Below are positions 44,918 to 64,000 of a stretch of 64,000 bases of DNA, piece by piece (position 1 is the first letter of the stretch; every line of letters begins with the position of its first letter). Source of the DNA: Ephemerocybe angulata. Taxonomy: Eukaryota; Basidiomycota; Agaricomycetes; Agaricales; Psathyrellaceae. Below the pieces are notes generated by a model, which was not told where the DNA came from, did no database searches, and saw nothing but the letters and a program-made list of their open reading frames with translations. A program made the translations under genes and the position numbers. The stretch covers positions 248,001 to 312,000 of the forward strand of contig JAACJK010000067.1 in NCBI GenBank assembly GCA_013368325.1. Direction: 5' to 3'.

Positions 44918-45748
44918 AATTGCAATTTCTTGCTCGTCCTGCGAGAATGTGGGGGAAGAATAAGGTCGTGAAAAGTCGTCTGGAGCGTGAAGAGATTTAA
45001 AGGGTATCCAAGTTGCCTCGAGGTGATAGAAGGAAGGCAAGCCACGGAGAGAACGATGCCGTCAAGTTGCGCCAAACGCGTGGTATGAGGTTCCGGATTT
45101 AGACGCGCGCCCGGGGAAAGCATGCACGTGACCGGAAATTGTTTGTACACCCTTCGGTGTACAAAGAACGCGAGGACGTCCAAATATCTGGATAAACTCG
45201 CAAAACGAGGCAAATAGAACTGATAAGCATCCAGACGACAGGATGTAATCTGAGATAGTCCCTTGAAGGAGCTCACCCGCCTTTACCGTTGTCATGGCGG
45301 GGGTAAAACTCCTATGACAAGGAGGACACGGTTGGAGGCTGTAATGGGATTTGTGCTTTTGAAATCAACCTGGGCTCCAGTAATTAATGGGGCCCCTCTA
45401 AAATCGTACAAGGCGCGTACAGAGTGAACCTGTGGAAGTGGGTGAAGGTGGAAGTACGGGTTCAAGAAGCAATCCAGGCTTCGGAACCTGTCACGCGCCC
45501 GTGACCATGTCCGTGCGCAGGTCCTAGCGCGCGCCTAGTTACATATATAGAGCATATCCACGTACCTAGATTATTTGTCTCTTGGTCGAATCAACGCGTT
45601 TTCCCCGTTTCCCGCATCCTCGCCTCGTCCCTCGACCTTGCCCGTACTTAACAGAACGCGTCTTCATTGGGCGAGAGAACAAAGATGTACAAACAGCGCG
45701 ACACCTCGTGATCTGCGACTTTCTCTCTTTCTGCAAGCGTCGTCAAAG
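44918..45748. other. Promoter side of the WD40 gene up to the first transposon end
   Basis: About 0.8 kb between the WD40 start codon and the terminus of DNA-transposon copy 1. A frame at 45575-45747 (plus) is open but unrecognised. The 8 bp before the transposon are CGTCAAAG, the predicted target duplication of copy 1, whose other half lies outside the window. Confidence 0.5.
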
Positions 45749-45762
45749 AGGACCCCTGAGAA
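45749..45762 (+). repeat. Terminal inverted repeat of DNA-transposon copy 1
   Basis: AGGACCCCTGAGAA, identical to both ends of copy 2 (49097 and, inverted, 61990). Confidence 0.88.
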
Positions 45763-45783
45763 CTGGGGATTAGGTAAGATACG

Positions 45784-45935
45784 CGTCCACTCCTCAAAGG
45801 GCGCCGAAGGCGCCCGACCTCAGATACTAGCATAGTGAGCGTCCGCTCCTCGGCCGCACCGCCACGATGGGTACCTTAGATACATAGTCCACTCCTCGGA
45901 CCATTGCCGGGGAGGTTGGATACAGTCCACTCCTC
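45784..45935 (+). repeat. Subterminal repeats of the DNA transposon, 5' end
   Basis: Four units of the form GATAC-(3-10 nt)-GTCC(A/G)CTCCTC with cores near 45785, 45841, 45887 and 45924. Between the first two lies the hairpin GGGCGCC-GAA-GGCGCCC (about 45799-45815). The same array appears inverted at 61804-61955 in copy 2. Likely transposase-binding sites. Confidence 0.8.
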
Positions 45936-46129
45936 ACCGGCTATGCCGGGGATCAGGGGGCAGCTGAGTAATATACGCAATTTCAAATCCCGACTCATCA
46001 ATGCGATCACATACCCATTGTTCACTCACAAAGAACGGCTTTTGAATCTCAAACCACGGTTGTTCCTGTACTACAACATAGGTTGACGACGATTTTTCAT
46101 TCCCCTTGCCTCATCGACAGAGCCCTTCA

Positions 46130-49096
46130 ATGCCGCCCACTCCTCCAGATCCTCTGGGCATTCTCGAGCCCTGGATTGGTAAAGGGAAGACATACAAAGA
46201 TGTTCCCGACGATATCGCAGATGCTGTTACTGCCAGAGTAACCCTTAGCTCGACAGGCTTGGAGCATCTCCTCCCTTCAGTTGTCGGATGTACAATCCAG
46301 CAGCTCGTAAGCCACGAACTTCCAAAACGGTCCCATGCAACAACTATCTTCAACCCGAGAAGCCGCTACCACCCCAACCAACCAACAACCACGCTATCTG
46401 TCCTCCTTAAATGCAGCGACTGGTGTATTCCACCTCAGGCAACTTTGGATGGTCTTCGTGATGTCTCTGGCCAGGCTATCCTTGATGGTTGCAACTCGAT
46501 CAAGGTCTGGGACATGAAGGATGCTATTTACGCGCCTTTGAGTGTCATCGGTCTATGGGCATTTCTCCTCGTTGCATCGACATCTCAAGCCAAATGGAAA
46601 CTCGCACTACAGTGGCTCAACTCTGCCGCGGTTGATACAAGCTTGAAGGAGCGAGCAATCTCAGCAATGGGACGCGTCCAATGGCAGGGAAAGTTACCTG
46701 CCATCTCGGATTGGCTTGATGTCAGTCGTGCACCGGAGTTCCTCAGCAACAGTTATTTGTCCACGTCGCATGTCAATGCAATGCTCTACCTGGTTCGTGA
46801 GCGTGTATCAAGAACCTCCGCAATATCGTCGACCACTTTGATATCATCTACGGATCTTGCGGACAGACTGTCGCACACGGATACAACCTATCCGAAGAAT
46901 TCAATATTCGAAGCTCAAACATTTGGTACGTTCTCATATAGTTCCCTGGTTGACTATTTTCTCATTCAGTATGTGCAGGGAATCAATTCTCGTCTGAACC
47001 GCAGAGGTACCAGTTGCTCACGGTCGCGTACTCACCACCAAACCACTGGGCAGCTATGCGCTTGGACTTGCGAGGAAAAAATATCTCTGGCTCGTGGGGC
47101 GACTCTCTGGGCTGGAAGCAGCCGAAAAAGCTAGTCAAAGGCATCGGCATCTGGCTTGATTATCATGTACCCCTTCGACGATACACATTCTCGGATGACT
47201 TACCATGCGCGGTTCAAACGGACAGTTTCTCTTGTGGGATAGTTGCAGTCAACGCGCTCAAACACAACCTCTTTGGCGACCCTCTTTGGACGGCGCAATC
47301 AGCAGCGAAGCTACGTATCAAAGAGTTCTGCGATATTATGGATTCCGAATATCCGTGCCCCAATATCCAGCCATCCCTTGCCGAAACGTCTAGTGAACGG
47401 ACTCTGATATCAGCAGTACCATTGGAAATTCCTCGTCCGGTCCAGGGCTTGCTCGTCCCTACTCCTTCCACTCAAGATAAGCGCTCGGTACATCCATTCT
47501 TTGGTGCTCCACGCCAGCCCCCCAAGCGCAAGCCAAGTCCTACGAACGAAACAAGCTCAAAGCCGACCAAAGCGCCACGTTTGGTCGCACCAAAGCCCAC
47601 GAAGGTCAACGACAATCCAACAAGCAAGTCAAGTGGCCCGAAGAACACGTTAACCGGAAGATCTCGCTCAACTCTCGCTAAAAGGGACATAAATGAACAA
47701 GTTGCAAATGGAACATTCGTACGGTCTGACACCAAGTGGGAAGCCTACTTAACGAAGCTCAGGGGGCTTGATCCCGACGTTGAAGTGAACGAACGGGATA
47801 TCACCGAGATACGCAAAGCCCGTCACTCGCAGTGTGCGCAGTGGATTACCCAGGACGAGCCATACAACATCTGGAAATTCAAGAAGCACCTTTTGACGTG
47901 TAAAGGAAAGGCCTCGAGCCGGCCAGCTGGAAATACCCGGACTCTAATTGCTATGGATGCTGTGTCATTCATTCCGACACTAGACGCCGAGCCCAGTATG
48001 GTTGCAGCACAATCGACTTCACCTAGCAAGAAGCCAGCAGATATTGAGACATGGCCATGTCCCGGTCTCAGCCAAGAGGATGATCCCCGTATCCCGCAAT
48101 ATTTCTCCCGCACAACTCAGCCCTCTGCTGGTGGAGTAAAGGCCAATATACTCGCACAGTCTATGTTTGGTGTTGCATCAACTCGAGATCTCGACGAAAA
48201 CCAGAGCAAGGCTCTTGCACTTAGGCAGCAGGCAACACACCGATGGCGCTTAGATCATGGCGAGAAGCGGATATTTGCGATGGGAGAGCATCCATGTCAT
48301 ATCAACGTCACAGCAAAGTCCTTGGAAAACATCAAGCCGTGCCCCGCATGCAAGGATCTGCTCTCGCTTCGCGCATTCCTCACCGCTATTCACAAGCCAA
48401 TTCCTGAGGACAAGAATCGTATATACACACCTCACCAATTCCAATCTGCCTCTATTGGAAAGCAATTTGCAACAATTAAAGGCTTATCCTCACTCTTCAA
48501 TGATACGGTACGTCTCAGAGATCTCAGATGTCCGACTACCCCATCATACTAATAATTTAACTACAGAACACAGTCGGACCACTTCTCCAAAGGTTTGTGC
48601 GAACGAGCTCCGACCTTGAGAGTAAGCCTGTGTTTAAAGGCATGCTCGAGGTAATGATCGACAGGTCGGAGCGCGAGTCAAAAGGAAAAGGGCTTCAGAA
48701 CATGAAGTATAGTCCCGCCTTTGATGAATGGGTCCACGAGCTGTGCTGTATAAGCCCAGAGGCCTATCGTTCTTTCCGAGATCACTTTGGCGGAAGAACC
48801 GAGCGCAGTTTTCGAGAGATCAGAGCGAAGCAACCTTCATTCAAGGAAGGATTTAATCCTGAACAGTTGCTTTCTCGAGCCCGACAATACCTACAAGATC
48901 ATGGCTACCCGCCATCTGGTCCACTATCGATGTCCGTTGATGACACGAAACTACATCCTTCGCTTTCACCATATTTCGACAACGAGCAGAAGCGATGGTA
49001 CTTACTGGGATCAACACGGGGACCTCAGCTTGTGGATAGCTACGAACAGATCCCCGAGATCATGGCTCAGGAAAAGGATTTCAAGGCAACTAAGCT
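46130..49096 (+). CDS. Ulp1-protease/transposase fusion of DNA-transposon copy 1, 5' part
   Basis: Exons 46130-46925, 46970-48507 and 48567 onwards (interrupted at 49096). I start at ATG 46130 (MPPTPPDPLGILEPWIGKG); the frame is open 24 bases further but only from a TTG. Residues about 280-360 form a Ulp1/C48 cysteine protease: NHWAAM (His291), WGDSLG (Asp310), DLPCAVQTDSFSCG (Gln348, Cys354), all four catalytic positions present. A basic Pro/Lys/Ser linker follows. Then comes a Cys/His cluster at about 550-580 (HSQCAQW...KKHLLTC) and a second (CHINVTAKSLENIKPCPACK). The transposase part begins near residue 780 with SVDDTKLHPSLSPYFD (Asp903/904) and is cut by copy 2 after residue 954; it continues at 61991. 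Confidence 0.85.
49089..49096. repeat. 8-bp target-site duplication of copy 2, left
   Basis: ACTAAGCT, repeated directly at 61991-61998. Removing copy 2 plus one repeat restores the uninterrupted reading (ATKLRLW) seen in copy 2 it itself. Confidence 0.95.
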
Positions 49097-49110
49097 AGGA
49101 CCCCTGAGAA
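49097..49110 (+). repeat. Terminal inverted repeat, 3' end of copy 2
   Basis: AGGACCCCTGAGAA. After 14 perfect positions the two ends diverge, with only the GGT(A/C)AGATAC stretch still shared. Confidence 0.9.
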
Positions 49111-49126
49111 TCCCGGCCGAGGTCAG

Positions 49127-49252
49127 ATACCAAAATCGGCGATCCGGGGTCTCGGGGAGTGGACGGAAAATTGCGATTTTTCGGCTTCCGGGGAGTGGAT
49201 GCGGTATCTGACCTCCGAATTCGTACCTCGGGGAGTGGACTCCGTATCTGAC
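49127..49252 (-). repeat. Subterminal repeats of the DNA transposon, 3' end
   Basis: In element orientation: CAGATAC-GGA-GTCCACTCCCC, CAGATAC-CGC-ATCCACTCCCC and a third GTCCACTCCCC. Plus-strand cores near 49154, 49190 and 49230, with a further GGTCAGATAC next to the end. Same orientation within the element as the 5' array. Confidence 0.8.
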
Positions 49253-52200
49253 ATAAATAAATGCCAGAAAATCGAAAATAATTCATAATAAAATTCCTAC
49301 GCGCACTTTCTACATATCTACGTGAATTACAGATCTGTTTCGGGTGCTTCCTTGCTTTTCCGCAGTGTTGCAGTCAACTTGTCGATAGCAGCGCCAATCT
49401 GGGTCTGTTGGGAGCGGTACTTCATGAATACGCTGTCGTAGAATGACTGGTTTAGTTCCAACATCCCATTTTGCAAGGTGGACACATATTTGGCCGGGAT
49501 GAAGTGGAGGAATCGTGAGGCAGGGAGATGCGCAAACCGGGGAAGCGACAGGTGTATTGAGTGCCAGATAGCGCGGAACTGGCGCCTTCCCGGTATGTGC
49601 TGCCAGACCTGGATTGGGATGTATGAAAGACCGCCGATGGAGCTGACTTCCGACACCCATGCGTGTCGTGCTGTCTTTCCGCCGCCTTTCTCGTACATTG
49701 TGAGGACTGTAAATATATTTAATATCATATAACCTCATGTCTTAGCAGAAGAACATACCTTTCCCAACCATTAACTGCCCATCAACGAAGACGATCCCGA
49801 AACTGGCCCCAACAAGGGTTGTGAGAGCGTCAATCTTTGCTGTTGCAAGGTCACCTCCACCGGTAATAGAAGCGAATGCTTGACGCCGTTTGTTGATAAC
49901 CTATCGAACAGGTGAGCCTCATATTAAACCTGTAACTGGAAAGTGAACGACGCACTGTTGTTGCAGATGCTTTTGCGACAGCACTGGCATTCGCCGCATT
50001 GCCTGTAAGTGTGTCTGTCCGCACATACGCTGATGTGAGCTCATCGACTGAGGCTGCCGCAGTTTTCTCGTAGCGGAAGCGGCGATTTAGGCCTGACGCA
50101 ATTCGGAACTCGATGTCCCTCTTCAAAACTGACTGGATCTTGCGTGCCAGTAGCTTCCGATCCGACGTGTCTGTCGTTGCCTCGTTCGATGAGTCTACAT
50201 TCTTCTGGGCGGATCTGCGGACGGCGAGTCGTGCCTCTTTCGTTTCGTTTGCCTTTCGAACGTGGAACAAGGTCTTCAGCTCGAATCCAGAGAGATCTAG
50301 AGCGAAGGGCTGTGCATCAACTGGAGCTGGCTCGGCCGGGGTTTGAACTGAGTTAAGAAGTGCTGCCACGGCTTCTGCCCCTCGCTCGCTGTGGCGCGCA
50401 ATTGCAGTTAGATACTCCTGCACGGCAAGTTGAATCTCGCGCATTGCTTCTGGGTCATCCTCAGGGAGACTTTCACTAACTTTGATGTCAGTCAAAAGCT
50501 AATTGTTAATCTTGACAGAATACGCACATTGTCTCGTAGTCGGCAAACGAAAGTGATGCCGCTGCGTACCCGCACTCTTGAATAGCCTCTCGGCACTCTT
50601 CCAATGGAGAGATATCTGCGCAGTACCTCTCTGCGAGATCCAGAGTCTCCTCAACCTCAAGACGGTCATCAGAAATAAGTGGTTCTGGATCGATGGGACG
50701 GCCCTTGGGATCAGCTGTTGCTCGTGCTGCCAGTATGTCTTCATCTTCATCGAGGCTCTCGTCGTTCACAGCTGAGGGGGCCGCTGGAGTCATAGTTGGC
50801 GGCGATGGTGCACCAGAGCTGAAGAAATACCCCAGCAAGGACCACAGAGTCACCGCCTCATCGTAGCCACCCTTGATGGCACTGTTAATCTCTTCATCGG
50901 GCGGGAAGTCCATGAGGGTTTGGAAATTGATGTCGTCGAAGTCAAAGTAGAAATGTGAGTATCCACTGGCTGTTTTCTGGAAGTCGACGTTGACCTGCTT
51001 TCTTCGACACGCTGCCAGTAGCCGCACGCGGATTTTGGGTACAAGTCGAACGAAGTCCAGAAACGAGAACTCGGGAACCATCACCCTGGTGAACCCAAAG
51101 GTATGTTCATTTGACTCGCTGCCGACAGTCCATGGTAACAATGGATATCTCCCTTCAAGGTGGTCACGGAAGATGAACAGAAGAGACATGTATCCATTGA
51201 CGAAGATGTCAATGATGTCGTCAGCTTCGCGAGAAATGTAATGCTGTGCCTCCGAGTACCCCGCCTCTTTCAAGAATGTCTTCCAAATCTCCTTGAAATA
51301 GAACGCTCGGTATAGCATCTTGATCCTATCGAGATGTGGGAGAGATCGGTTCTGGTATGCGTCAACCATCTCACCGAAGATAAATAGGTATACCGTCAAT
51401 CCCAAGTTCTCCGAGAACTGATCAATTGCATAGTCAAGGGTCGATGCTGAGAAAAGCCTGGCTGCAGCACGGTCATCTTGGCGGTCCAACTTCTCAACAT
51501 CGCGAACGTAAAGTGGAGATCTCTCTTCGTCGATGGCCATCAGACGAATATGCTCGTAGAAAACAGTGAAGTTGCCCAGAACAAGAGTGCGAGCGCCCGA
51601 CATGAGATTATTCCGACAAGTCTTTCGGAGGTGTTTCGCATCCTGGATGACGGCCATGAGTGATCCTCGCACCGAGAGCATCTTGATCTCCAGAGTTGGA
51701 GTAAGCTGTAGGTCAGGAGAGGAGAGTCTTTTGACTTCCTCTTCAGCATATCCAGAGCGGACAGAAGCCCGGCGAGAGTCGCGTTCTACACTGGTACCGT
51801 CAGAACCAAGTGAGATTACACAGAACCCAGCAGGCAGAAGAACATCCAGTATCGCGGCTTCGAACTCGGCTAGCTGGACGGCGTTGATCTTCCCCGGAAT
51901 GCCCTTTGCAGCAAGAATGAGTGGGGGTACTGCCGGAAGGGGGATATTCAATGTCCATAGGCGCAGCTTAGTTGCCTTGAAATCCTTTTCCTGAGCCATG
52001 ATCTCGGGGATCTGTTCGTAGCTATCCACAAGCTGAGGTCCCCGTGTTGATCCCAGTAAGTACCATCGCTTCTGCTCGTTGTCGAAATATGGTGAAAGCG
52101 AAGGATGTAGTTTCGTGTCATCAACGGACATCGATAGTGGACCAGATGGCGGGTAGCCATGATCTTGTAGGTATTGTCGGGCTCGAGAAAGCAACTGTTC

Positions 52201-52806
52201 AGGATTAAATCCTTCCTTGAATGAAGGTTGCTTCGCTCTGATCTCTCGAAAACTGCGCTCGGTTCTTCCGCCAAAGTGATCTCGGAAAGAACGATAGGCC
52301 TCTGGGCTTATACAGCACAGCTCGTGGACCCATTCATCAAAGGCGGGACTATACTTCATGTTCTGAAGCCCTTTTCCTTTTGACTCGCGCTCCGACCTGT
52401 CGATCATTACCTCGAGCATGCCTTTAAACACAGGCTTACTCTCAAGGTCGGAGCTCGTTCGCACAAACCTTTGGAGAAGTGGTCCGACTGTGTTCTGTAG
52501 TTAAATTATTAGTATGATGGGGTAGTCGGACATCTGAGATCTCTGAGACGTACCGTATCATTGAAGAGTGAGGATAAGCCTTTAATTGTTGCAAATTGCT
52601 TTCCAATAGAGGCAGATTGGAATTGGTGAGGTGTGTATATACGATTCTTGTCCTCAGGAATTGGCTTGTGAATAGCGGTGAGGAATGCGCGAAGCGAGAG
52701 CAGATCCTTGCATGCGGGGCACGGCTTGATGTTTTCCAAGGACTTTGCTGTGACGTTGATATGACATGGATGCTCTCCCATCGCAAATATCCGCTTCTCG
52801 CCATGA

Positions 52807-52811
52807 TCTAA
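52807..52811. repeat. 5-bp target-site duplication of the Ty3/Gypsy element, left
   Basis: TCTAA, repeated at 59485-59489. Copy 1 of the DNA transposon shows the uninterrupted site, proving the insertion point. Confidence 0.95.
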
Positions 52812-53309
52812 TGTCAGCGAACGACCGGTCTGGTGCGCTGCTAACCCTAACTTAGGACAGAAGACGAGAGAGAGAGAAGAGGCGAGAGAATCAAGGCGAG
52901 AGACTTGTAGACAAGGCCGTGATATTGACCAGCTAAAGACTGGGGAAATACAGTGAGATCTACCTAGGTTATATACTGCTATGCTTCGTGACCGTGACGT
53001 GACTATGGCTATACGAGGCTGTACATACTGTGCAGAAGCTGTGGAATGCTATGTAAGGAATGACCGTGTATGAGTCGAAGAGCTGTGCGAGTGCTGTGCA
53101 TATGATGTCATGCTGACTGAGGTGCTGACTGATGCTGTGCCGGTCCCGTGATGTAGCAGGTGACCTGTGCATGTGATCGCACGTGCTGTGTCACGTGACC
53201 GAGACGCGTCTTGTAAATAGTAGAGAAATGAAAGACAAGAAATAAAGGAAAAAGAAAAGAAAAGGAAAAGAAAAGGAAAAAGAATAAATAGATCATCCAG
53301 GTCGTAACA
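52812..53309 (-). repeat. 3' LTR of the Ty3/Gypsy element
   Basis: 498 bp, downstream LTR in the minus-strand sense. The last 17 bases of the pol frame lie inside it. It contains a purine block (about 53240-53285, plus strand) that is pyrimidine-rich in the sense strand, in U3. Confidence 0.95.
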
Positions 53310-56300
53310 TCACCCCCCCTTTAGCTTCGTCGTCCTCGACAATTTCAGCCTCTCTCCCCCTCGCTCGGTAGTGTCGGATTTCCTTCAGTTTCCCATCTGT
53401 CCAGTCAAAGATCGCTCTCTTGTTCTCGGTAAGGTTCTCGTACGGGATAAAGCGGAGTTGGTGTGGTTGGATCCGTCTTGGTGCACTCGGGTGTTTTCGG
53501 TGGAAGTCAGCTATAGCGTCCGCTGCATTATCAACGTTCCGTTCCGGTTCCCATGTTCGTTCTTCCTCAGGGTATCCAGCCCACTCTACGAGGTAATGGA
53601 GCTTCCCTCTGATGAACTTTGAGTCGTGGATGGCTTCAACTTCGTATCGTTCCTCTGTTTCATCAACAGGTGGTGGTGGCGGTGGTTTCTGTTGAGAGGG
53701 GAATTCGGGTTTTTTGAACAGAGTTAGGAGTGATTCGTTAAAGACAGGGTGGATGGATTTCCACTTCGGAGGGAGTTGGAGTTGGTAAGCAGATTGTCCG
53801 ATCTTCTTGACAATGGGGAATGGTCCATAGCGTTTATCCGAGAGCTTCCGAGAAGGACGAGTGATCGAGATGTTGGTCCCTTCGAGGTAGACCTTGTCTC
53901 CGGGTTTGTAGTTTATGGCATCCCGGCGATGTCGGTCATAGTTCTCCTTCATCTTCTCAGCTGCTGCCTTGAGGCTGGAGCGTGCATCCTCGTGTACTTG
54001 TTTCATCCGCTCGGCGAATTGTTGCGCAGGTTCTGATTTTACACGTGTCCGGGCCTCTTTTCCTTTCCAAGGGTGCTGTCCGGAGTTGAGGAAGAATGGG
54101 GAGTAGCCTGTTGCTGAGTGGACCTTGTCGTTGTATGAGAAGACTGCTAATGGGAGCCATTCTGCCCAATCATCCTGTCGTTCGCTGATGAAGAGTCGGA
54201 GGTACTGTTCAAGCTCTTGGTTGATACGCTCGGTTTGTCCATCGGTTTGTGGGTGGAAGGCAGTGGATCGGTTGTGCTTTATTCCCAGAAGAAGAAGTAG
54301 ATCTGTCATGAAGTTGGAGACGAATTGGGTTCCTCGATCACTGATGACCTTTTGGGGAAGACCGTGGTGTCGGAAAACATAGTCCCTGTATAGTTCGGCT
54401 ACTCCTTTAGACGTAAGCTCGGTGGTTGTGGGTATGGCTTCGATCTTTTTGGAGAATCTGTCGACAATCACAAGTATGGCGTTGCTTCCATTGGACTCAG
54501 GTAATGGGCCGATCATATCGATAGAGACGATCTCCCAGGGTCTGGATGGGATCTCGTTTGGGACTAATGGGGCTGCTGGGGAGGTACGCTTGGGTTTCGT
54601 CCTTTGACAGGCTTCACATCCTTCTACATATCGTCGAACTGAGTCCTGGATCTTTGGCCACCAGTAGTTTCGTGTGATGAGTTCACGGGTTTTGTACTGT
54701 CCTGGGTGTCCAGCGGTGGGGGCGTCATGGTGTTGTCTGATGATTTCTTCCCGTAGCTTCTTGTCGACTGGTACGTAAATCCGTCCTTTCCAGGTGATGA
54801 TGCCATCTTCTGTCTCTTCCCATCCATCTTCTTTCTGTGAGAGTGCTTTTTCTACCGACTTGTCCCTATTCCTGCACACCTTCAAGATCCGTCGCATGAT
54901 GTCTTGGTCTGTTTCAATGGAAAGCGCTCGGAACCACTCGGATTTCAGGACCGTGACGTTCTCATTATCCTGTTCTCCTCTGTCATGGCCATCTCGTCTG
55001 GACAGGGCATCTGCCTTGGCCATGGTCCTCCCGGGTCGGTGATGGAGCGTGAAGTTGTAGTCCTGCATTTCTGTGGTCCATCTCGCTTGTCTCCGGTTGA
55101 GCTTCTGAGGCTTCCTAAAGTAGCTAAGGTTCTTGTGGTCTGTGTGACATTCGAAGATCTCCTCAGCTCCAAGTAGGTATTGTCTCCATTCAGATAGCGC
55201 AGTCATGATGGCGAGTAGTTCCTTATCGTAGATCTCGTAGTTCCGCTCCGTTGGGTTAAGGGCGTGCGACAAGAATGCAATCGGTTTCCATTTCCCATCT
55301 AGCTGTTGCTGTGATAGAATGGCACCGATGGCGAAGTCTGATGCATCACATTCGATTCGGAATTTCCCTTTGTCGTTGGGCATGGTAAGTACAGGTGCCG
55401 TCGTGATTCTCCGTTTTATCTCCTTGAAGGCTTCCTCTTGCTCCTTTCCCCACTCCCATTCCTTCTTTCCCGTGAGTCCCGAGAGCGGTCTCGCTAGTCC
55501 TCCAAACCCTTCGATGAATCTTCGGTAGAAGTTGGCGAATCCCAAGAACTGCTGGACTCCTTTGACGGATGTCGGAGCTGGCCAGTCTCTGACGGCTTTG
55601 ACCTTTTCTGGATCCATGCGAACTTTGTTGTGGGAGACGATGACTCCAAGGTATTCGACTTCCGTTTGTTCAAAGGAGCACTTGTCAGGCTTGGCAAAGA
55701 GCTTGTATCGCCGTAGCCTTTCCAGAACTTTGGTGACTAGTTTCCGATGTTCCTCCAGAGTGTCTGTGAAGATCAGGATGTCGTCCATGTAGATGACAAC
55801 GTGTCCATCATTGATGAGATCTCTGAAGAGGGCGTTCATCATGGTCTGGAATGTGGCAGGTGAGTTCTTGAGACCGAAGAACATGACGAGGGGTTCAAAC
55901 AGCCCACGGTTAGTGCGGAAGGCTGCTTTCCATTCATCTCCTTCTTTGATTCGGACATTATTGAAACCCCATCGGATGTCGATCTTGGAATAGTACCGCG
56001 CTCCTCGGAGTTTGTCGATGAGTTCTTGGATGAGTGGAAGGGGATATCGATTGGTGATCGTAATCTCATTCAGCCGTCTGTAGTCTTGGACAGGTCGTAG
56101 AGTACCGTCTTTCTTTTTGACGAAGAAGAGGGGTGCTCCCATCGGTGACTTCGATGGTCTGATCCTTCCTGATTTGAGGTTTTCTTCCAGGAAGGCATCT
56201 AGTTGCTTCTGCTCTTCTGGGTTCAGGGGATAGATTCGACTGTCCATTACTTCTGCTCCGGGTATGAGTTCGATCGCATGATCCCATGCTCGCCTTGGAG

Positions 56301-57240
56301 GGAGTTCATCAAAGGCTTCCTTTGAGAAGACGTCCTTGAAGCCATGATAGCATTTCGGGACTACTTCTTCAAATGTGCGCTCTTTGGTTGCCTTGTGTTT
56401 GGTTTCGGCAATTTTAGAGGCAGTGGTTTGGAAAGCCCTTATCTTGATCTCTCCTTGGATATCGATGGCTAGCAGTCGATCTCCAACCTCGATCTCTTCC
56501 CATTTGATCTCGTCTGATTCGGGGTCACCAGTTATGAGTGGCGTGCATTCGAGTGGGCATCGGTTGAATAAGATCTCTTTCTTCTGCCAATCGATAGAGG
56601 GGTTGTGCTTCTCCAGCCAGTCCATTCCTAGGAAGATCTTCGACTTGTCAAGGTTCGAAACGGCTAGCTCAATGCGTTCCGTGTGGTCCTTGATTTTGAT
56701 GAAGAGTTCCACTACTTCGGTAATGGGTCCGTTGTTGTTTGGACTTCCATCAGCGTTATAGACTGGTATAGGAAGGGGTAGCTGCCGCGTGTTGATCCCT
56801 TCTTCTTTGACGAATGCAGCATCGATACAACTTCCGGTAGACCCACAATCGATAAGACCTTCGATAGAGAAGCTTCGCTTATCATCGCGTGTGCTTGCGA
56901 CAATGTTGGCTGTAAGCTGTCTGTCCGTCCTTAAACTCCTTATGTATTGTTTGGGAGTTGCAAGACCGTTCAGTGCTTCTACTACTTCGGTGTCTGTGAG
57001 CTTTCGGAGTTTGGCAACGAGTTCATCTCCTACTTCTCGGACCTTCTTGTGATGTGTCCATGCAAGAAGAAGTCCTACTGCTCGATCGGGGCTATCATCA
57101 AGTCGCTGTGCGACCCATTCTGCCGTTCCTGGTTTTCCTTTCTTTCCTTTAAATCTGCCCTGGTTCTCTGATTCTTCGTCGAAATATAATTTATTGGGGA
57201 TGGGGCATATTACGTCGGGTATCAGAATCTGAGAGTCCAT
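53293..57240 (-). CDS. pol: Pol polyprotein (protease-RT-RNase H-integrase-chromodomain), 1,315 aa
   Basis: ATG 57240 to TGA 53293. Aspartic protease site LIDCGSTGSCID near residue 128 (D-C-G variant of D-S/T-G). Reverse transcriptase: RPVQDYRRLNEIT, YYSKIDIRWGFNNVRI and the catalytic YMDD at 484-487. RNase H: ECDASDFAIGAILSQQ near 630 and THDHKN-like HTDHKNLSYF. Integrase: H-H-C-C finger (HHDAPTAGH...CEACQRTK), then Asp near 907 (SIDMIGPLP), Asp near 967 (SDRGTQF) and Glu near 1003 (QTERINQEL). Chromodomain near 1195-1250 (YEVEAIHDSKFIRGKLHYLV, EWAGYPEEERTWEPE) with its aromatic cage positions. The frame is -1 relative to Gag and open back across the Gag stop. The end reads through the polypurine tract and stops 17 bases inside the LTR. 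Confidence 0.97.
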   Translation of the reverse strand: MDSQILIPDVICPIPNKLYFDEESENQGRFKGKKGKPGTAEWVAQRLDDSPDRAVGLLLAWTHHKKVREVGDELVAKLRKLTDTEVVEALNGLATPKQYIRSLRTDRQLTANIVASTRDDKRSFSIEGLIDCGSTGSCIDAAFVKEEGINTRQLPLPIPVYNADGSPNNNGPITEVVELFIKIKDHTERIELAVSNLDKSKIFLGMDWLEKHNPSIDWQKKEILFNRCPLECTPLITGDPESDEIKWEEIEVGDRLLAIDIQGEIKIRAFQTTASKIAETKHKATKERTFEEVVPKCYHGFKDVFSKEAFDELPPRRAWDHAIELIPGAEVMDSRIYPLNPEEQKQLDAFLEENLKSGRIRPSKSPMGAPLFFVKKKDGTLRPVQDYRRLNEITITNRYPLPLIQELIDKLRGARYYSKIDIRWGFNNVRIKEGDEWKAAFRTNRGLFEPLVMFFGLKNSPATFQTMMNALFRDLINDGHVVIYMDDILIFTDTLEEHRKLVTKVLERLRRYKLFAKPDKCSFEQTEVEYLGVIVSHNKVRMDPEKVKAVRDWPAPTSVKGVQQFLGFANFYRRFIEGFGGLARPLSGLTGKKEWEWGKEQEEAFKEIKRRITTAPVLTMPNDKGKFRIECDASDFAIGAILSQQQLDGKWKPIAFLSHALNPTERNYEIYDKELLAIMTALSEWRQYLLGAEEIFECHTDHKNLSYFRKPQKLNRRQARWTTEMQDYNFTLHHRPGRTMAKADALSRRDGHDRGEQDNENVTVLKSEWFRALSIETDQDIMRRILKVCRNRDKSVEKALSQKEDGWEETEDGIITWKGRIYVPVDKKLREEIIRQHHDAPTAGHPGQYKTRELITRNYWWPKIQDSVRRYVEGCEACQRTKPKRTSPAAPLVPNEIPSRPWEIVSIDMIGPLPESNGSNAILVIVDRFSKKIEAIPTTTELTSKGVAELYRDYVFRHHGLPQKVISDRGTQFVSNFMTDLLLLLGIKHNRSTAFHPQTDGQTERINQELEQYLRLFISERQDDWAEWLPLAVFSYNDKVHSATGYSPFFLNSGQHPWKGKEARTRVKSEPAQQFAERMKQVHEDARSSLKAAAEKMKENYDRHRRDAINYKPGDKVYLEGTNISITRPSRKLSDKRYGPFPIVKKIGQSAYQLQLPPKWKSIHPVFNESLLTLFKKPEFPSQQKPPPPPPVDETEERYEVEAIHDSKFIRGKLHYLVEWAGYPEEERTWEPERNVDNAADAIADFHRKHPSAPRRIQPHQLRFIPYENLTENKRAIFDWTDGKLKEIRHYRARGREAEIVEDDEAKGGVMLRPG
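53310..53323 (-). promoter_or_regulatory. Polypurine tract of the Ty3/Gypsy element
   Basis: Sense strand TAAAGGGGGGGTGA directly before the 3' LTR (which begins TGTTACG). Expected plus-strand primer. It lies inside the pol frame. Confidence 0.88.
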
Positions 57241-57272
57241 GACCAGCTCGCTTGGGCGTTCGAGTGGTCCCT

Positions 57273-58427
57273 TTAAAAATCCTTCAACTTGGCTTTGAGG
57301 GCCTCAATCTCGGATTCGGGCATAGCGGAAAGGTCGAAGTCGTTGACGCGGGTGTACTGGGGAGGGGCAGTGGTGTCTTTGGTGAATGGAGCAAAGGGCT
57401 TCTTGTTGGGAGACTTGCAGTCGGCGATCTTGTGTCCTTTGGCTTTGCAGTAGGCGCAGCTGACGTCGGGTACAGCCTGCCTGCAGGAGTCGGATCGGTG
57501 ACCGGGTTTCCCACAAGTGTAGCAGATGAGAGGGGAGCGGTTGCGATCTATGTCCATGGCGTTGGGGTCGCGAGCCGGGGTCGTGGCGTAGTGTGTGGGT
57601 CGATTGTTCTCCCTGGGAGTCCATCTCCTTTGGGTAGTCTGTTCGTTGTTCCGTTCCCCTTTCGCTAGGCGGAACTGTCTGTCCAAGGTGCATGCTTTCT
57701 CAGCCCATTCGGCTAAGGTCGTGGGCATCGGGATCAGTCCATAGATCTTGTCCCTGAGTGCCTTGTTCAGTCCTCGTTTGTACTCGGCAAGCATGGCCGG
57801 TTCGTTGTATCCAGCCTGGGTCGAGTATCCTTGGAAGAGGATGGTGTACTCTTCGCAGGTAGAGCTGCCTTGGACCAGGGTGCGCATCTTGTCGATGGCA
57901 GCTTCCGAGACGTTTTGGATAACGAAGTGGCTGTTGAAAGTAATGACGAATTGCTTCCAGTTCTTGAAGTAGAATGGTTCGGCGTCTGTTGCTTCATGGT
58001 TCTTGATGAAAGTTCTCTGGCTGTCTGCCCAGTGACTAGCCATGTCGTTCGTTCCTCCTTTGATCTTTGAAAGGGCGAAAATGATCCGTTGCTTCGTGTC
58101 GTCGACGTCCATGATGTCGTAGTACATCTCTAGTTCTGCGATGAAGCCTCCTGCTCTTTCAGGAGCTCCATTGAATTCTTTCGGAGGGTCGGGTTTCAGT
58201 TTCTTGAGCGCAGAAGTGGCTCGTTGCTTGGCAAGTTCCTCGGCGAGTTGGGTCTGTCTTTGGGTGAGGACGGCCTGTTCGTCGGAGGCTGCAGCGAGGT
58301 TGGTTGCTGCAGTGGAGAGTTGTGTGGTGCTTCGGTCGAAGGTTGTTGCGAAGGAGGCGACGATACTTCCAAGATTGGTCATAGTTGATGCCAGGGTGGC
58401 CATAGCGGCTTGGAGGGCTTCTGCCAT
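57273..58427 (-). CDS. gag: Gag polyprotein of the Ty3/Gypsy element, 384 aa
   Basis: ATG 58427 to TAA 57273. Helical N-terminal region, then a retrotransposon Gag domain (WKQFVITFNSHFVIQN; MRTLVQGSSTCEEYTILFQG; LAEYKRGLNKALRDKIYGL at roughly 130-245). Two CCHC zinc knuckles follow near 297-312 (CYTCGKPGHRSDSC) and 320-335 (CAYCKAKGHKIADC), which bind the RNA genome. The stop codon sits in GATTTTTAA. Pol follows in the -1 frame with its ATG 32 nt after the stop, so Pol could arise by slippage on the T run or by re-initiation. Confidence 0.95.
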   Translation of the reverse strand: MAEALQAAMATLASTMTNLGSIVASFATTFDRSTTQLSTAATNLAAASDEQAVLTQRQTQLAEELAKQRATSALKKLKPDPPKEFNGAPERAGGFIAELEMYYDIMDVDDTKQRIIFALSKIKGGTNDMASHWADSQRTFIKNHEATDAEPFYFKNWKQFVITFNSHFVIQNVSEAAIDKMRTLVQGSSTCEEYTILFQGYSTQAGYNEPAMLAEYKRGLNKALRDKIYGLIPMPTTLAEWAEKACTLDRQFRLAKGERNNEQTTQRRWTPRENNRPTHYATTPARDPNAMDIDRNRSPLICYTCGKPGHRSDSCRQAVPDVSCAYCKAKGHKIADCKSPNKKPFAPFTKDTTAPPQYTRVNDFDLSAMPESEIEALKAKLKDF

Positions 58428-58973
58428 GATAGGCGATGTGGGATAGGGGGTTGCTTGTGCGGATACTCGGTCCGATCCTATGCGTCAGGCTGCAGGATAT
58501 ACCGTACAGTCTACGCAATGCGATTTGCTTGAGGTCGTGGAGATCGAGTTGCTATCTCCGAGATGGCGACTCTTACGGAATGTGTCTACGTAGACTAGAG
58601 TGACCGTTGACAAACTACAAAGGGCCTAATTGGGCAGGAGAAAAGGGGTATTTGTAAACTAAGCCCGAGCCGTAGCTCTTGATCGCTCTGAGTACCGGTT
58701 ACCAGGTTCTTAGCTTCCCGTTATCGAAGATCACAACGAACGGGGAAGATCAGAAGTCTGGGCCTCTCACAGTGGGGCTTCTACGCTACGTGCTTAAGAC
58801 CTAAAGTCTCGCGCTCTCCAAGGTGCTGCCTCCTACAGAGGGGCGTTGCTTGGGATAAAAGAGGATAGTGTGAAAATGGAATAAAGGGACACACGCCTAG
58901 GCGCGGGCAAGGTTTGATGGTTGTTGAGAGTGGTGATGGTGTCGAGGATCGAGGTGATCGGCGACAAAGGAGA

Positions 58974-58984
58974 AGTCTTTAGCT
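58974..58984 (-). promoter_or_regulatory. Primer-binding site, self-priming type
   Basis: Sense strand AGCTAAAGACT, two bases after the end of the 5' LTR. It is the exact complement of AGTCTTTAGCT within the same LTR (59116-59106), which lies 34 bases after a TATA box and would be the 5' end of the transcript. No tRNA 3' end that I know fits. This is the arrangement established for Tf1 of fission yeast. Confidence 0.8.
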
Positions 58985-58986
58985 AT

Positions 58987-59484
58987 TGTCAGCGAACGAC
59001 CGGTCTGGTGCGCTGCTAACCCTAACTTAGGACAGAAGACGAGAGAGAGAGAAGAGGCGAGAGAATCAAGGCGAGAGACTTGTAGACAAGGCCGTGATAT
59101 TGACCAGCTAAAGACTGGGGAAATACAGTGAGATCTACCTAGGTTATATACTGCTATGCTTCGTGACCGTGACGTGACTATGGCTATACGAGGCTGTACA
59201 TACTGTGCAGAAGCTGTGGAATGCTATGTAAGGAATGACCGTGTATGAGTCGAAGAGCTGTGCGAGTGCTGTGCATATGATGTCATGCTGACTGAGGTGC
59301 TGACTGATGCTGTGCCGGTCCCGTGATGTAGCAGGTGACCTGTGCATGTGATCGCACGTGCTGTGTCACGTGACCGAGACGCGTCTTGTAAATAGTAGAG
59401 AAATGAAAGACAAGAAATAAAGGAAAAAGAAAAGAAAAGGAAAAGAAAAGGAAAAAGAATAAATAGATCATCCAGGTCGTAACA
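58987..59484 (-). repeat. 5' LTR of the Ty3/Gypsy element
   Basis: 498 bp; promoter-bearing LTR for the minus-strand transcript. TATATAA at 59150-59144, predicted RNA start at 59116, so U3 is about 368 and R plus U5 about 130 bases. Contains CTAACCCTAAC near its end, which is not telomeric (too short). Confidence 0.95.
59144..59150 (-). promoter_or_regulatory. TATA box of the Ty3/Gypsy 5' LTR
   Basis: TATATAA on the minus strand. The predicted start AGTCTTT at 59116 is 34 bases downstream of its first T, the normal distance. Confidence 0.75.
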
Positions 59485-59489
59485 TCTAA
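59485..59489. repeat. 5-bp target-site duplication of the Ty3/Gypsy element, right
   Basis: TCTAA, matching 52807-52811. Confidence 0.95.
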
Positions 59490-61803
59490 GCGCCATCGGT
59501 GTGTTGCCTGCTGCCTAAGTGCAAGAGCCTTGCTCTGGTTTTCGTCGAGATCTCGAGTTGATGCAACACCAAACATAGACTGTGCGAGTATATTGGCCTT
59601 TACTCCACCAGCAGAGGGCTGAGTTGTGCGGGAGAAATATTGCGGGATACGGGGATCATCCTCTTGGCTGAGACCGGGACATGGCCATGTCTCAATATCT
59701 GCTGGCTTCTTGCTAGGTGAAGTCGATTGTGCTGCAACCATACTGGGCTCGGCGTCTAGTGTCGGAATGAATGACACAGCATCCATAGCAATTAGAGTCC
59801 GGGTATTTCCAGCTGGCCGGCTCGAGGCCTTTCCTTTACACGTCAAAAGGTGCTTCTTGAATTTCCAGATGTTGTATGGCTCGTCCTGGGTAATCCACTG
59901 CGCACACTGCGAGTGACGGGCTTTGCGTATCTCGGTGATATCCCGTTCGTTCACTTCAACGTCGGGATCAAGCCCCCTGAGCTTCGTTAAGTAGGCTTCC
60001 CACTTGGTGTCAGACCGTACGAATGTTCCATTTGCAACTTGTTCATTTATGTCCCTTTTAGCGAGAGTTGAGCGAGATCTTCCGGTTAACGTGTTCTTCG
60101 GGCCACTTGACTTGCTTGTTGGATTGTCGTTGACCTTCGTGGGCTTTGGTGCGACCAAACGTGGCGCTTTGGTCGGCTTTGAGCTTGTTTCGTTCGTAGG
60201 ACTTGGCTTGCGCTTGGGGGGCTGGCGTGGAGCACCAAAGAATGGATGTACCGAGCGCTTATCTTGAGTGGAAGGAGTAGGGACGAGCAAGCCCTGGACC
60301 GGACGAGGAATTTCCAATGGTACTGCTGATATCAGAGTCCGTTCACTAGACGTTTCGGCAAGGGATGGCTGGATATTGGGGCACGGATATTCGGAATCCA
60401 TAATATCGCAGAACTCTTTGATACGTAGCTTCGCTGCTGATTGCGCCGTCCAAAGAGGGTCGCCAAAGAGGTTGTGTTTGAGCGCGTTGACTGCAACTAT
60501 CCCACAAGAGAAACTGTCCGTTTGAACCGCGCATGGTAAGTCATCCGAGAATGTGTATCGTCGAAGGGGTACATGATAATCAAGCCAGATGCCGATGCCT
60601 TTGACTAGCTTTTTCGGCTGCTTCCAGCCCAGAGAGTCGCCCCACGAGCCAGAGATATTTTTTCCTCGCAAGTCCAAGCGCATAGCTGCCCAGTGGTTTG
60701 GTGGTGAGTACGCGACCGTGAGCAACTGGTACCTCTGCGGTTCAGACGAGAATTGATTCCCTGCACATACTGAATGAGAAAATAGTCAACCAGGGAACTA
60801 TATGAGAACGTACCAAATGTTTGAGCTTCGAATATTGAATTCTTCGGATAGGTTGTATCCGTGTGCGACAGTCTGTCCGCAAGATCCGTAGATGATATCA
60901 AAGTGGTCGACGATATTGCGGAGGTTCTTGATACACGCTCACGAACCAGGTAGAGCATTGCATTGACATGCGACGTGGACAAATAACTGTTGCTGAGGAA
61001 CTCCGGTGCACGACTGACATCAAGCCAATCCGAGATGGCAGGTAACTTTCCCTGCCATTGGACGCGTCCCATTGCTGAGATTGCTCGCTCCTTCAAGCTT
61101 GTATCAACCGCGGCAGAGTTGAGCCACTGTAGTGCGAGTTTCCATTTGGCTTGAGATGTCGATGCAACGAGGAGAAATGCCCATAGACCGATGACACTCA
61201 AAGGCGCGTAAATAGCATCCTTCATGTCCCAGACCTTGATCGAGTTGCAACCATCAAGGATAGCCTGGCCAGAGACATCACGAAGACCATCCAAAGTTGC
61301 CTGAGGTGGAATACACCAGTCGCTGCATTTAAGGAGGACAGATAGCGTGGTTGTTGGTTGGTTGGGGTGGTAGCGGCTTCTCGGGTTGAAGATAGTTGTT
61401 GCATGGGACCGTTTTGGAAGTTCGTGGCTTACGAGCTGCTGGATTGTACATCCGACAACTGAAGGGAGGAGATGCTCCAAGCCTGTCGAGCTAAGGGTTA
61501 CTCTGGCAGTAACAGCATCTGCGATATCGTCGGGAACATCTTTGTATGTCTTCCCTTTACCAATCCAGGGCTCGAGAATGCCCAGAGGATCTGGAGGAGT
61601 GGGCGGCATTGAAGGGCTCTGTCGATGAGGCAAGGGGAATGAAAAATCGTCGTCAACCTATGTTGTAGTACAGGAACAACCGTGGTTTGAGATTCAAAAG
61701 CCGTTCTTTGTGAGTGAACAATGGGTATGTGATCGCATTGATGAGTCGGGATTTGAAATTGCGTATATTACTCAGCTGCCCCCTGATCCCCGGCATAGCC
61801 GGT

Positions 61804-61955
61804 GAGGAGTGGACTGTATCCAACCTCCCCGGCAATGGTCCGAGGAGTGGACTATGTATCTAAGGTACCCATCGTGGCGGTGCGGCCGAGGAGCGGACGC
61901 TCACTATGCTAGTATCTGAGGTCGGGCGCCTTCGGCGCCCTTTGAGGAGTGGACG
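61804..61955 (-). repeat. Subterminal repeats of copy 2, 5' end
   Basis: Inverse of the array at 45784-45935: four GAGGAG(T/C)GGAC cores with GTATC partners (plus strand) and the GGGCGCC hairpin. Confidence 0.8.
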
Positions 61956-61976
61956 CGTATCTTACCTAATCCCCAG

Positions 61977-61990
61977 TTCTCAGGGGTCCT
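61977..61990 (-). repeat. Terminal inverted repeat, 5' end of copy 2
   Basis: Reads AGGACCCCTGAGAA on the minus strand, immediately followed on the plus strand by the ACTAAGCT duplication. Confidence 0.9.
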
Positions 61991-61998
61991 ACTAAGCT
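61991..61998. repeat. 8-bp target-site duplication of copy 2, right
   Basis: ACTAAGCT, matching 49089-49096. Confidence 0.95.
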
Positions 61999-64000
61999 GC
62001 GCCTATGGACATTGAATATCCCCCTTCCGGCAGTACCCCCACTCATTCTTGCTGCAAAGGGCATTCCGGGGAAGATCAACGCCGTCCAGCTAGCCGAGTT
62101 CGAAGCCGCGATACTGGATGTTCTTCTGCCTGCTGGGTTCTGTGTAATCTCACTTGGTTCTGACGGTACCAGTGTAGAACGCGACTCTCGCCGGGCTTCT
62201 GTCCGCTCTGGATATGCTGAAGAGGAAGTCAAAAGACTCTCCTCTCCTGACCTACAGCTTACTCCAACTCTGGAGATCAAGATGCTCTCGGTGCGAGGAT
62301 CACTCATGGCCGTCATCCAGGATGCGAAACACCTCCGAAAGACTTGTCGGAATAATCTCATGTCGGGCGCTCGCACTCTTGTTCTGGGCAACTTCACTGT
62401 TTTCTACGAGCATATTCGTCTGATGGCCATCGACGAAGAGAGATCTCCACTTTACGTTCGCGATGTTGAGAAGTTGGACCGCCAAGATGACCGTGCTGCA
62501 GCCAGGCTTTTCTCAGCATCGACCCTTGACTATGCAATTGATCAGTTCTCGGAGAACTTGGGATTGACGGTATACCTATTTATCTTCGGTGAGATGGTTG
62601 ACGCATACCAGAACCGATCTCTCCCACATCTCGATAGGATCAAGATGCTATACCGAGCGTTCTATTTCAAGGAGATTTGGAAGACATTCTTGAAAGAGGC
62701 GGGGTACTCGGAGGCACAGCATTACATTTCTCGCGAAGCTGACGACATCATTGACATCTTCGTCAATGGATACATGTCTCTTCTGTTCATCTTCCGTGAC
62801 CACCTTGAAGGGAGATATCCATTGTTACCATGGACTGTCGGCAGCGAGTCAAATGAACATACCTTTGGGTTCACCAGGGTGATGGTTCCCGAGTTCTCGT
62901 TTCTGGACTTCGTTCGACTTGTACCCAAAATCCGCGTGCGGCTACTGGCAGCGTGTCGAAGAAAGCAGGTCAACGTCGACTTCCAGAAAACAGCCAGTGG
63001 ATACTCACATTTCTACTTTGACTTCGACGACATCAATTTCCAAACCCTCATGGACTTCCCGCCCGATGAAGAGATTAACAGTGCCATCAAGGGTGGCTAC
63101 GATGAGGCGGTGACTCTGTGGTCCTTGCTGGGGTATTTCTTCAGCTCTGGTGCACCATCGCCGCCAACTATGACTCCAGCGGCCCCCTCAGCTGTGAACG
63201 ACGAGAGCCTCGATGAAGATGAAGACATACTGGCAGCACGAGCAACAGCTGATCCCAAGGGCCGTCCCATCGATCCAGAACCACTTATTTCTGATGACCG
63301 TCTTGAGGTTGAGGAGACTCTGGATCTCGCAGAGAGGTACTGCGCAGATATCTCTCCATTGGAAGAGTGCCGAGAGGCTATTCAAGAGTGCGGGTACGCA
63401 GCGGCATCACTTTCGTTTGCCGACTACGAGACAATGTGCGTATTCTGTCAAGATTAACAATTAGCTTTTGACTGACATCAAAGTTAGTGAAAGTCTCCCT
63501 GAGGATGACCCAGAAGCAATGCGCGAGATTCAACTTGCCGTGCAGGAGTATCTAACTGCAATTGCGCGCCACAGCGAGCGAGGGGCAGAAGCCGTGGCAG
63601 CACTTCTTAACTCAGTTCAAACCCCGGCCGAGCCAGCTCCAGTTGATGCACAGCCCTTCGCTCTAGATCTCTCTGGATTCGAGCTGAAGACCTTGTTCCA
63701 CGTTCGAAAGGCAAACGAAACGAAAGAGGCACGACTCGCCGTCCGCAGATCCGCCCAGAAGAATGTAGACTCATCGAACGAGGCAACGACAGACACGTCG
63801 GATCGGAAGCTACTGGCACGCAAGATCCAGTCAGTTTTGAAGAGGGACATCGAGTTCCGAATTGCGTCAGGCCTAAATCGCCGCTTCCGCTACGAGAAAA
63901 CTGCGGCAGCCTCAGTCGATGAGCTCACATCAGCGTATGTGCGGACAGACACACTTACAGGCAATGCGGCGAATGCCAGTGCTGTCGCAAAAGCATCTGC
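61991..64000 (+). mobile_element. DNA transposon copy 1, 3' part, continues beyond the window
   Basis: Continuation of the element that starts at 45749. Contains the C-terminal half of the transposase gene; the 3' terminus lies outside. The matching part of copy 2 (49327-51990) agrees by translation. Confidence 0.9.
61991..64000 (+). CDS. Ulp1-protease/transposase fusion of copy 1, 3' part
   Basis: Resumes at residue 953 (ATKLRLWTLNIPLPAVPP). Exon 3 runs to 63435 (intron GTGCGTATT...GTTAG, using the second AG to keep frame). The next exon starts at 63488 and continues to the window edge. Contains the Asp1010, Asp1063 and Glu1238/1241 candidates for the catalytic triad and the acidic region DEDEDILAARATADPKG. 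No stop or frameshift seen, so before copy 2 arrived copy 1 was probably intact. Confidence 0.85.

Follow-up and report, generated by a model that had tools for sequence, protein, structure and literature searches.

A transposon of Ephemerocybe angulata predicted to join a Ulp1-type protease and a P-related transposase in one protein

The stretch of DNA analysed (hereafter the window) comprises 64,000 nucleotides of Ephemerocybe angulata, positions 248,001 to 312,000 of the forward strand of contig JAACJK010000067.1, from an assembly of 58.7 Mb in 232 contigs (GCA_013368325.1). Repeat analysis identified two copies (A and B) of one DNA transposon in the window, which is predicted to encode a Ulp1-type (C48) protease and a DDE transposase in a single protein. 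Copy B is nested in copy A and is itself interrupted by a long terminal repeat (LTR) retrotransposon; with the inserts set aside, copies A and B were found to be identical across 6,216 bp. The features are as follows, in window positions (those beyond the window are from L010).

45741..45748, left target site duplication (TSD) of copy A, 8 bp, CGTCAAAG; right TSD at 64867-64874, beyond the window
45749..49096, + strand, 5' part of copy A, coding to codon 952
45749-45762, terminal inverted repeat of copy A, AGGACCCCTGAGAA
46130..46925, + strand, copy A exon 1, encoding the N-terminal region and the first part of the protease (residues 1 to ~265)
46979..48507, + strand, copy A exon 2, with the C48 residues H288 (47044), D307 (47101), Q345 (47215) and C351 (47233), both Cys/His clusters and Gly-Gly 650-651
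48567..49096, + strand, copy A exon 3, first piece, with the helical region and D900 (48939)
49089..49096, left TSD of copy B, 8 bp, ACTAAGCT
49097..61990, - strand, copy B, a complete but interrupted element inside copy A
49327..49706, - strand, copy B exon 6, including the stop codon
49759..49900, - strand, copy B exon 5
49956..50475, - strand, copy B exon 4
50528..52494, - strand, copy B exon 3, uninterrupted 655-amino-acid transposase core, with D900 (52122-52120), D1007 (51801-51799), D1060 (51642-51640), D1153 (51363-51361) and E1238 (51108-51106)
52554..52811, - strand, copy B exon 2, second piece, after the LTR element, with the second Cys/His cluster
52812..59484, - strand, Ty3/gypsy-type LTR retrotransposon in exon 2 of copy B, typed from its open reading frames (ORFs)
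59490..60760, - strand, copy B exon 2, first piece, before the LTR element, with the C48 residues and first Cys/His cluster
60814..61609, - strand, copy B exon 1
61991..61998, right TSD of copy B, 8 bp, ACTAAGCT
61999..64000, + strand, 3' part of copy A, which ends at 64866, beyond the window
61999..63435, + strand, copy A exon 3, second piece, after copy B and one TSD copy, with D1007 (62162), D1060 of the D(2)H motif (62321), the insertion domain and E1238 (62855)
63488..64007, + strand, copy A exon 4, of which the part to 64000 lies in the window
64063-64204 and 64257-64636, copy A exons 5 and 6, beyond the window

Copy B interrupts the coding sequence of copy A at codon 952, which falls between D900 and D1007, and the LTR element in turn interrupts that of copy B at codon 690; exons 4-6 are therefore complete inside the window in copy B only. 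The nesting gives the order of insertion as A, then B, then the LTR element. The last of these, which is predicted to be young, has LTRs of ~498 bp, a 5 bp TSD (TCTAA) and ORFs of 1,336 and 403 amino acids. Zero differences were observed between copies A and B and between the two LTRs, which suggests that all three insertions are recent. A DNA search of the assembly with 1,460 bp, mostly of exon 3, returned only copies A and B and no uninterrupted copy of their family, a count to be taken as a lower bound.

The gene model, in which splicing was deduced from open frames and homology, has five introns of 52-59 nt with GT-AG ends and yields a protein of 1,777 residues. The length of 1,780 residues given in an earlier note on this DNA results from an intron 1 acceptor 9 nt upstream, and was replaced as the downstream acceptor gives a gapless alignment to protein P0121. 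That note had also described a single six-exon gene at 46130..63435, encoding protease and transposase together; the six exons and the presence of both domains in one protein (from its conservation, fold and residues, described below) were upheld, but both copies are split, and a reading of one intact gene at those positions is wrong. That the protease and the transposase are two separately transcribed genes, fused in appearance only, is very improbable: the exon joins are predicted, but exon 2 alone carries the protease His, Asp, Gln and Cys together with the Cys/His clusters in one open frame, and 17 homologs are annotated as single proteins (themselves predicted models).

In the predicted protein the Ulp1/SENP-type protease comes first, at the N-terminal side, and a linker of low conservation joins it to two Cys/His clusters. 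These are followed by a stretch that aligns with the helix-turn-helix of P transposase, by an RNase-H core (D900, D1007 and E1238) that is interrupted by an insertion domain made up mostly of helices, and finally by the C-terminal tail. The protease residues noted earlier are present, with numbers three lower, and in a partial model (the part coded by exon 1 being outside it) the C48 domain has a papain-like fold with His, Asp, Gln and Cys in the expected order. These catalytic residues are kept at ~25% identity, including in a related element on contig C18. Adenovirus and African swine fever virus proteases were among the protease-domain matches listed. Both Cys/His clusters previously noticed were recovered (C551-H569-C573 and C705-C720-C723). 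A C48 search of the E. angulata genome listed 7 matches, none of which was at the 46130-63435 locus.

Comparison of transposase profiles using hhalign gave a score of 96.5% over 282 columns against the P superfamily, with controls, and aligned D900 and D1007 with the P RNase-H core, for which the reference residues are D230 (beta 1), D303 (beta 4) and E531 (alpha 4). E1238 was placed outside this alignment, by the motif EHxFGxxR and by helix 460-472 of the exon-3 model. The model also matched P transposase as a whole fold, and its insertion domain (model residues 286-445, helices and two 3-residue strands) lies between strand 278-284 and helix 460-472. A [C/D](2)H motif directly after beta 5 has been described for the P superfamily (PMC8230255), and D1060-A-K-H1063, in which D1060 aligned with D339 of P, directly follows strand 278-284; the D-x-x-H-x-x-K-x-x-R-N motif picked out from the sequence earlier corresponds to D1060-H1063-K1066-R1069-N1070. 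The RNase-H fold and its triad were assigned computationally, and a relationship of the core to P transposase, one of two affiliations first proposed, is supported by the alignment and the model. A genome search with the Pfam profile PF21787 returned no match, and its controls gave none either.

The other proposed affiliation, with Kyakuja-Dileera-Zisupton (KDZ) transposons, fared differently. It is barely credible that the element belongs to KDZ and has captured a protease, even though Zisupton and Dileera likewise make 8-bp duplications (PMC12730594) and KDZ is abundant in the same genome (at least 170 matches). Despite that number, the protein has no match to the KDZ Pfam domain (PF18758) and lacks the motifs of the KDZ ORFs of its own genome (LDACF, YDIGC and EGCERFWS), and hhalign against KDZ gave 0.4%, the level of shuffled controls, although with a small KDZ profile (11 ORFs, one genome) of limited power.

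A search with the whole length of the protein (7,991 candidates scored) identified 17 homologs of 1,402-2,039 residues, with the best single alignment of each spanning 46-100% of the query, from Candolleomyces, Galerina, Lactarius, Pleurotus, Hericium, Mycena and Hermanssonia. In local comparison the alignment began at or before residue 47 in 15 of the 17 and extended beyond residue 1,400 in all of them. Since these homologs and three other elements of the genome have the same domain order, the fusion is beyond chance. Distance matrices of the protease and the transposase were correlated at r = 0.955, a value equalled in 0 of 10,000 permutations (16 of 18 rows, P0134 and P0135 being dropped for coverage; same-species rows inflate r somewhat), as is expected if the two domains were joined once and inherited together. 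Taken with the fold and the residues, this conservation supports the fusion of protease and DDE transposase in one protein. In one source, the Pleurotus ostreatus homolog P0134 carries the name 'Methionine--tRNA ligase, mitochondrial', apparently a wrong label.

The search with exon 3 (7,995 candidates scored) gave at least 315 matches at E values up to 0.001; the family counts of both searches are lower bounds. None of the 120 exon-3 matches listed had a precomputed Pfam domain and nearly all of those named were hypothetical or uncharacterized, so that relatives of the transposase core have been missed in annotation. Every named match among those listed is, we take it, agaricomycete. Among the matches listed, the closest named relatives, both of Psathyrellaceae, had 76% to exon 3 (Ephemerocybe angulata) and 51-52% to the whole protein (Candolleomyces).

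The termini of the element are AGGACCCC and, as had been read from the sequence, they are accompanied by 8-bp duplications. Three other elements of the genome (E1-E3), on contigs C125 (6,750 bp), C220 (6,770 bp) and C18 (7,149 bp), encode both halves of the protein and have AGGACCCC ends and 8-bp duplications; as the scan required an exact 8-bp repeat, these three do not test the duplication length independently, which was done by copies A and B, a 1,323 bp element on C22 with the same ends and an 8-bp duplication, and nine short elements. The C125 and C220 elements are near-alike and, together with the C18 element, represent two further lineages. When the 14-base end of copies A and B was searched for with at most 1 mismatch allowed, 19 sites were obtained compared to 21 in the reversed control, which puts the one-mismatch sites at chance level, while the 6 exact matches belong to copies A and B and the C22 element. 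The C125 end gave 33 sites compared to 0 in the reversed control, of which 22 form 11 pairs and 11 are unpaired. Two pairs are the elements E1 and E2, and the remaining nine are the short elements (292-851 bp), which have both ends and perfect 8-bp duplications in 9/9 cases, at 7 distinct sites. Four of them (L082-L085) resemble the C125 element with internal sequence deleted, another four of smaller size (L078-L081) have mainly the ends in common with it, and L086 matched neither the C125 nor the C220 element in the comparison made. Such internally deleted derivatives were likely mobilised in trans. L079, L080 and L081 (contigs C49, C204 and C206) share one duplication, in one case as the reverse complement, and are probably a single insertion copied with its surroundings in duplicated genome segments.

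Near its ends, copy A has a composite motif, GATAC-N-GTCCACTCC, which starts at 45778, 45879 and 45919 at the 5' end and occurs once more near the 3' end (64715, beyond the window) in the same orientation as at the 5' end. In copy B it was found at 49248. These repeats are possible transposase-binding sites. The C22 element has a single GATAC/GTCCACTCC motif and none was found in E1-E3; what recurs at the 5' end of the C125 and C220 elements is GACCAGACA. A further exon-3 match was observed at C18:795407.

We consider it probable that the element is a P-related cut-and-paste transposon whose protease is active and most likely serves as a deconjugase acting in trans on host proteins. By homology, the Cys/His clusters and the helical region would bind terminal DNA, likely in a zinc-dependent manner, and the P-like core would cut at the AGGACCCC termini and insert with an 8-bp stagger, while the protease would most likely strip SUMO or another ubiquitin-like tag from proteins at the site, such as host silencing or repair proteins.

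A number of results weigh against this reading. Both copies in the window are interrupted. The exon-2 model, which lacks the part coded by exon 1, has a predicted template modelling score (pTM) of 0.32, the protein gave no Pfam match to C48 or P, and the protease domain matched SUMO, NEDD8 and ubiquitin enzymes alike. The hhalign alignment falls short of the catalytic Glu, and E1238 is Lys in 3 of 18 rows. Searches of the PDB, with exon 3 as a single sequence and with profile A2, gave only chance matches and none to P transposase. No THAP domain was found in residues 1-775, exon 3 or five homologs using Pfam to an E value of 10, a search which a diverged THAP domain could escape; some listed P relatives are likewise without a listed THAP domain. 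P transposase is described as unique among transposases and integrases in binding guanosine triphosphate (GTP) as a cofactor (PMC7776569), through contacts conserved among P family members (K385, K400, V401, S409, F443, D444, N447 and D528; PMC7776569), but only two of these eight (S409 and D444) are kept here. K400, V401, F443 and N447 are replaced by D1115, D1116, V1152 and Q1156, K385 falls in a gap of the hhalign alignment, and D528 is Glu by motif. Due to these changes the element was classed as P-related and not as a P element. Also on this side of the balance is the relative L059 of the same genome (C18:754 kb), which shows a transposase part only, with no protease half, AGGACCCC end or duplication found, and so counts against a universal presence of the protease. 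In the 18-row alignment (A1), P0127 and P0134 lack the Q345-C351 segment (a lone aligned Cys of P0127, beside the deletion, was not counted), three homologs lack the D900 segment and one lacks the D1060 segment; these are perhaps faulty gene models or dead copies.

The two homolog models of 17 without the Cys segment, and the faster divergence of the protease (mean identity 35%, compared to 53% for the transposase), would also suit a domain that is catalytically dead and serves to bind SUMO or ubiquitin or has a structural role. We regard this as unlikely, as binding alone would not need the catalytic residues that are retained at such low identity.

The last point weighing against a deconjugase, and the basis of its nearest rival, is a Gly-Gly that favours self-cleavage. 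This conserved pair (650-651) lies between the first Cys/His cluster and the second, where the exon-2 model has a loop predicted with confidence. It is present in 17 of 18 rows of alignment A1 and, if a shift of 1-2 residues is allowed, in 28 of the 29 sequences with letters at this place (including the protein itself and the three other genome elements; P0093 is the exception). Proteases of the C48 clan cut after Gly-Gly, and viral relatives of the fold cut polyproteins. Gly-Gly 650-651 may for this reason be a self-cleavage site, at which the protease would free the transposase part from its own, or may equally be structural. Against self-cleavage, it is displaced by 1-2 residues in part of the sequences, and the stretch before it was not shown to resemble a ubiquitin-like tail. 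Self-processing is a possibility of some substance but is not the explanation we favour. Similarly tentative is a broader proposal, that the element represents an undescribed sister superfamily to P, widespread in Agaricomycetes, without P-like GTP use, which combines integrase and deSUMOylase and possibly cuts itself at Gly-Gly; if this were true, the cut may release the transposase half, with the element then freed from SUMO-dependent silencing.

Compared to the P superfamily (Drosophila P transposase, THAP9 and Galileo), the element has the 8-bp duplication in common (copies A and B, the C22 element and all nine short elements), but is distinguished by its N-terminal Ulp1 domain, other Cys/His clusters, AGGACCCC termini, changed GTP contacts and the lack of a detected THAP domain, and matches in sequence by profile-profile comparison only. 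P elements of rust fungi (P-1_PSt, P-1_MLP and others) were reported in 2011 (PMC3164196); these are likewise basidiomycete members of the P superfamily, those of Melampsora with 8-bp duplications, and the available part of that account mentions no protease, the comparison being by description and not by termini or protein. Ginger1 also has transposase and Ulp1 in one protein but, unlike the element described here, has a gypsy-integrase-type transposase and a C-terminal Ulp1, and is from animals (PMC2836005). Plant CACTA-ULP (PMC2528002) and Mutator KIU/VANC elements (PMC13317346) are DNA transposons with ULP1 whose transposases belong to other superfamilies; KIU is accompanied by two further coding genes in its element, and KIU elements counter silencing, with the Ulp1 function there stated to be unknown (PMC13317346). 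CryptonF and CryptonS are mobile elements with a C48 peptidase, but have a tyrosine recombinase and no DDE transposase, and those bearing C48 are from oomycetes (PMC3212892). As far as the available parts of these four accounts go, a function of Ulp1 is established in none of them (PMC2836005, PMC2528002, PMC13317346, PMC3212892).

In the literature searched, no description was recognised of P-like elements with Ulp1 or of P elements from Agaricomycetes. The new part, judged from sequence comparison, is a P-related lineage with an N-terminal Ulp1 in Agaricomycetes; the surprise is limited, because P elements are known in rusts and Ulp1 fusions in other superfamilies. A distant relative with the P fold, altered GTP contacts and a protease raises the questions of which parts of the P mechanism are ancestral and of why Ulp1 has been acquired repeatedly by unrelated mobile elements (Ginger1, CACTA, Mutator, Crypton and the element described here). 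The element is worth following up for the combination in the fusion, its lack of annotation, the changes at the GTP site and the conservation of the Gly-Gly. As a separate observation, contig C18 has a KDZ transposase match followed, ~2.3 kb downstream and in the same orientation, by a C48 match (the pair being at C18:684471-684920 (-) and C18:687176-687616 (-)), and a KDZ element may likewise carry Ulp1.

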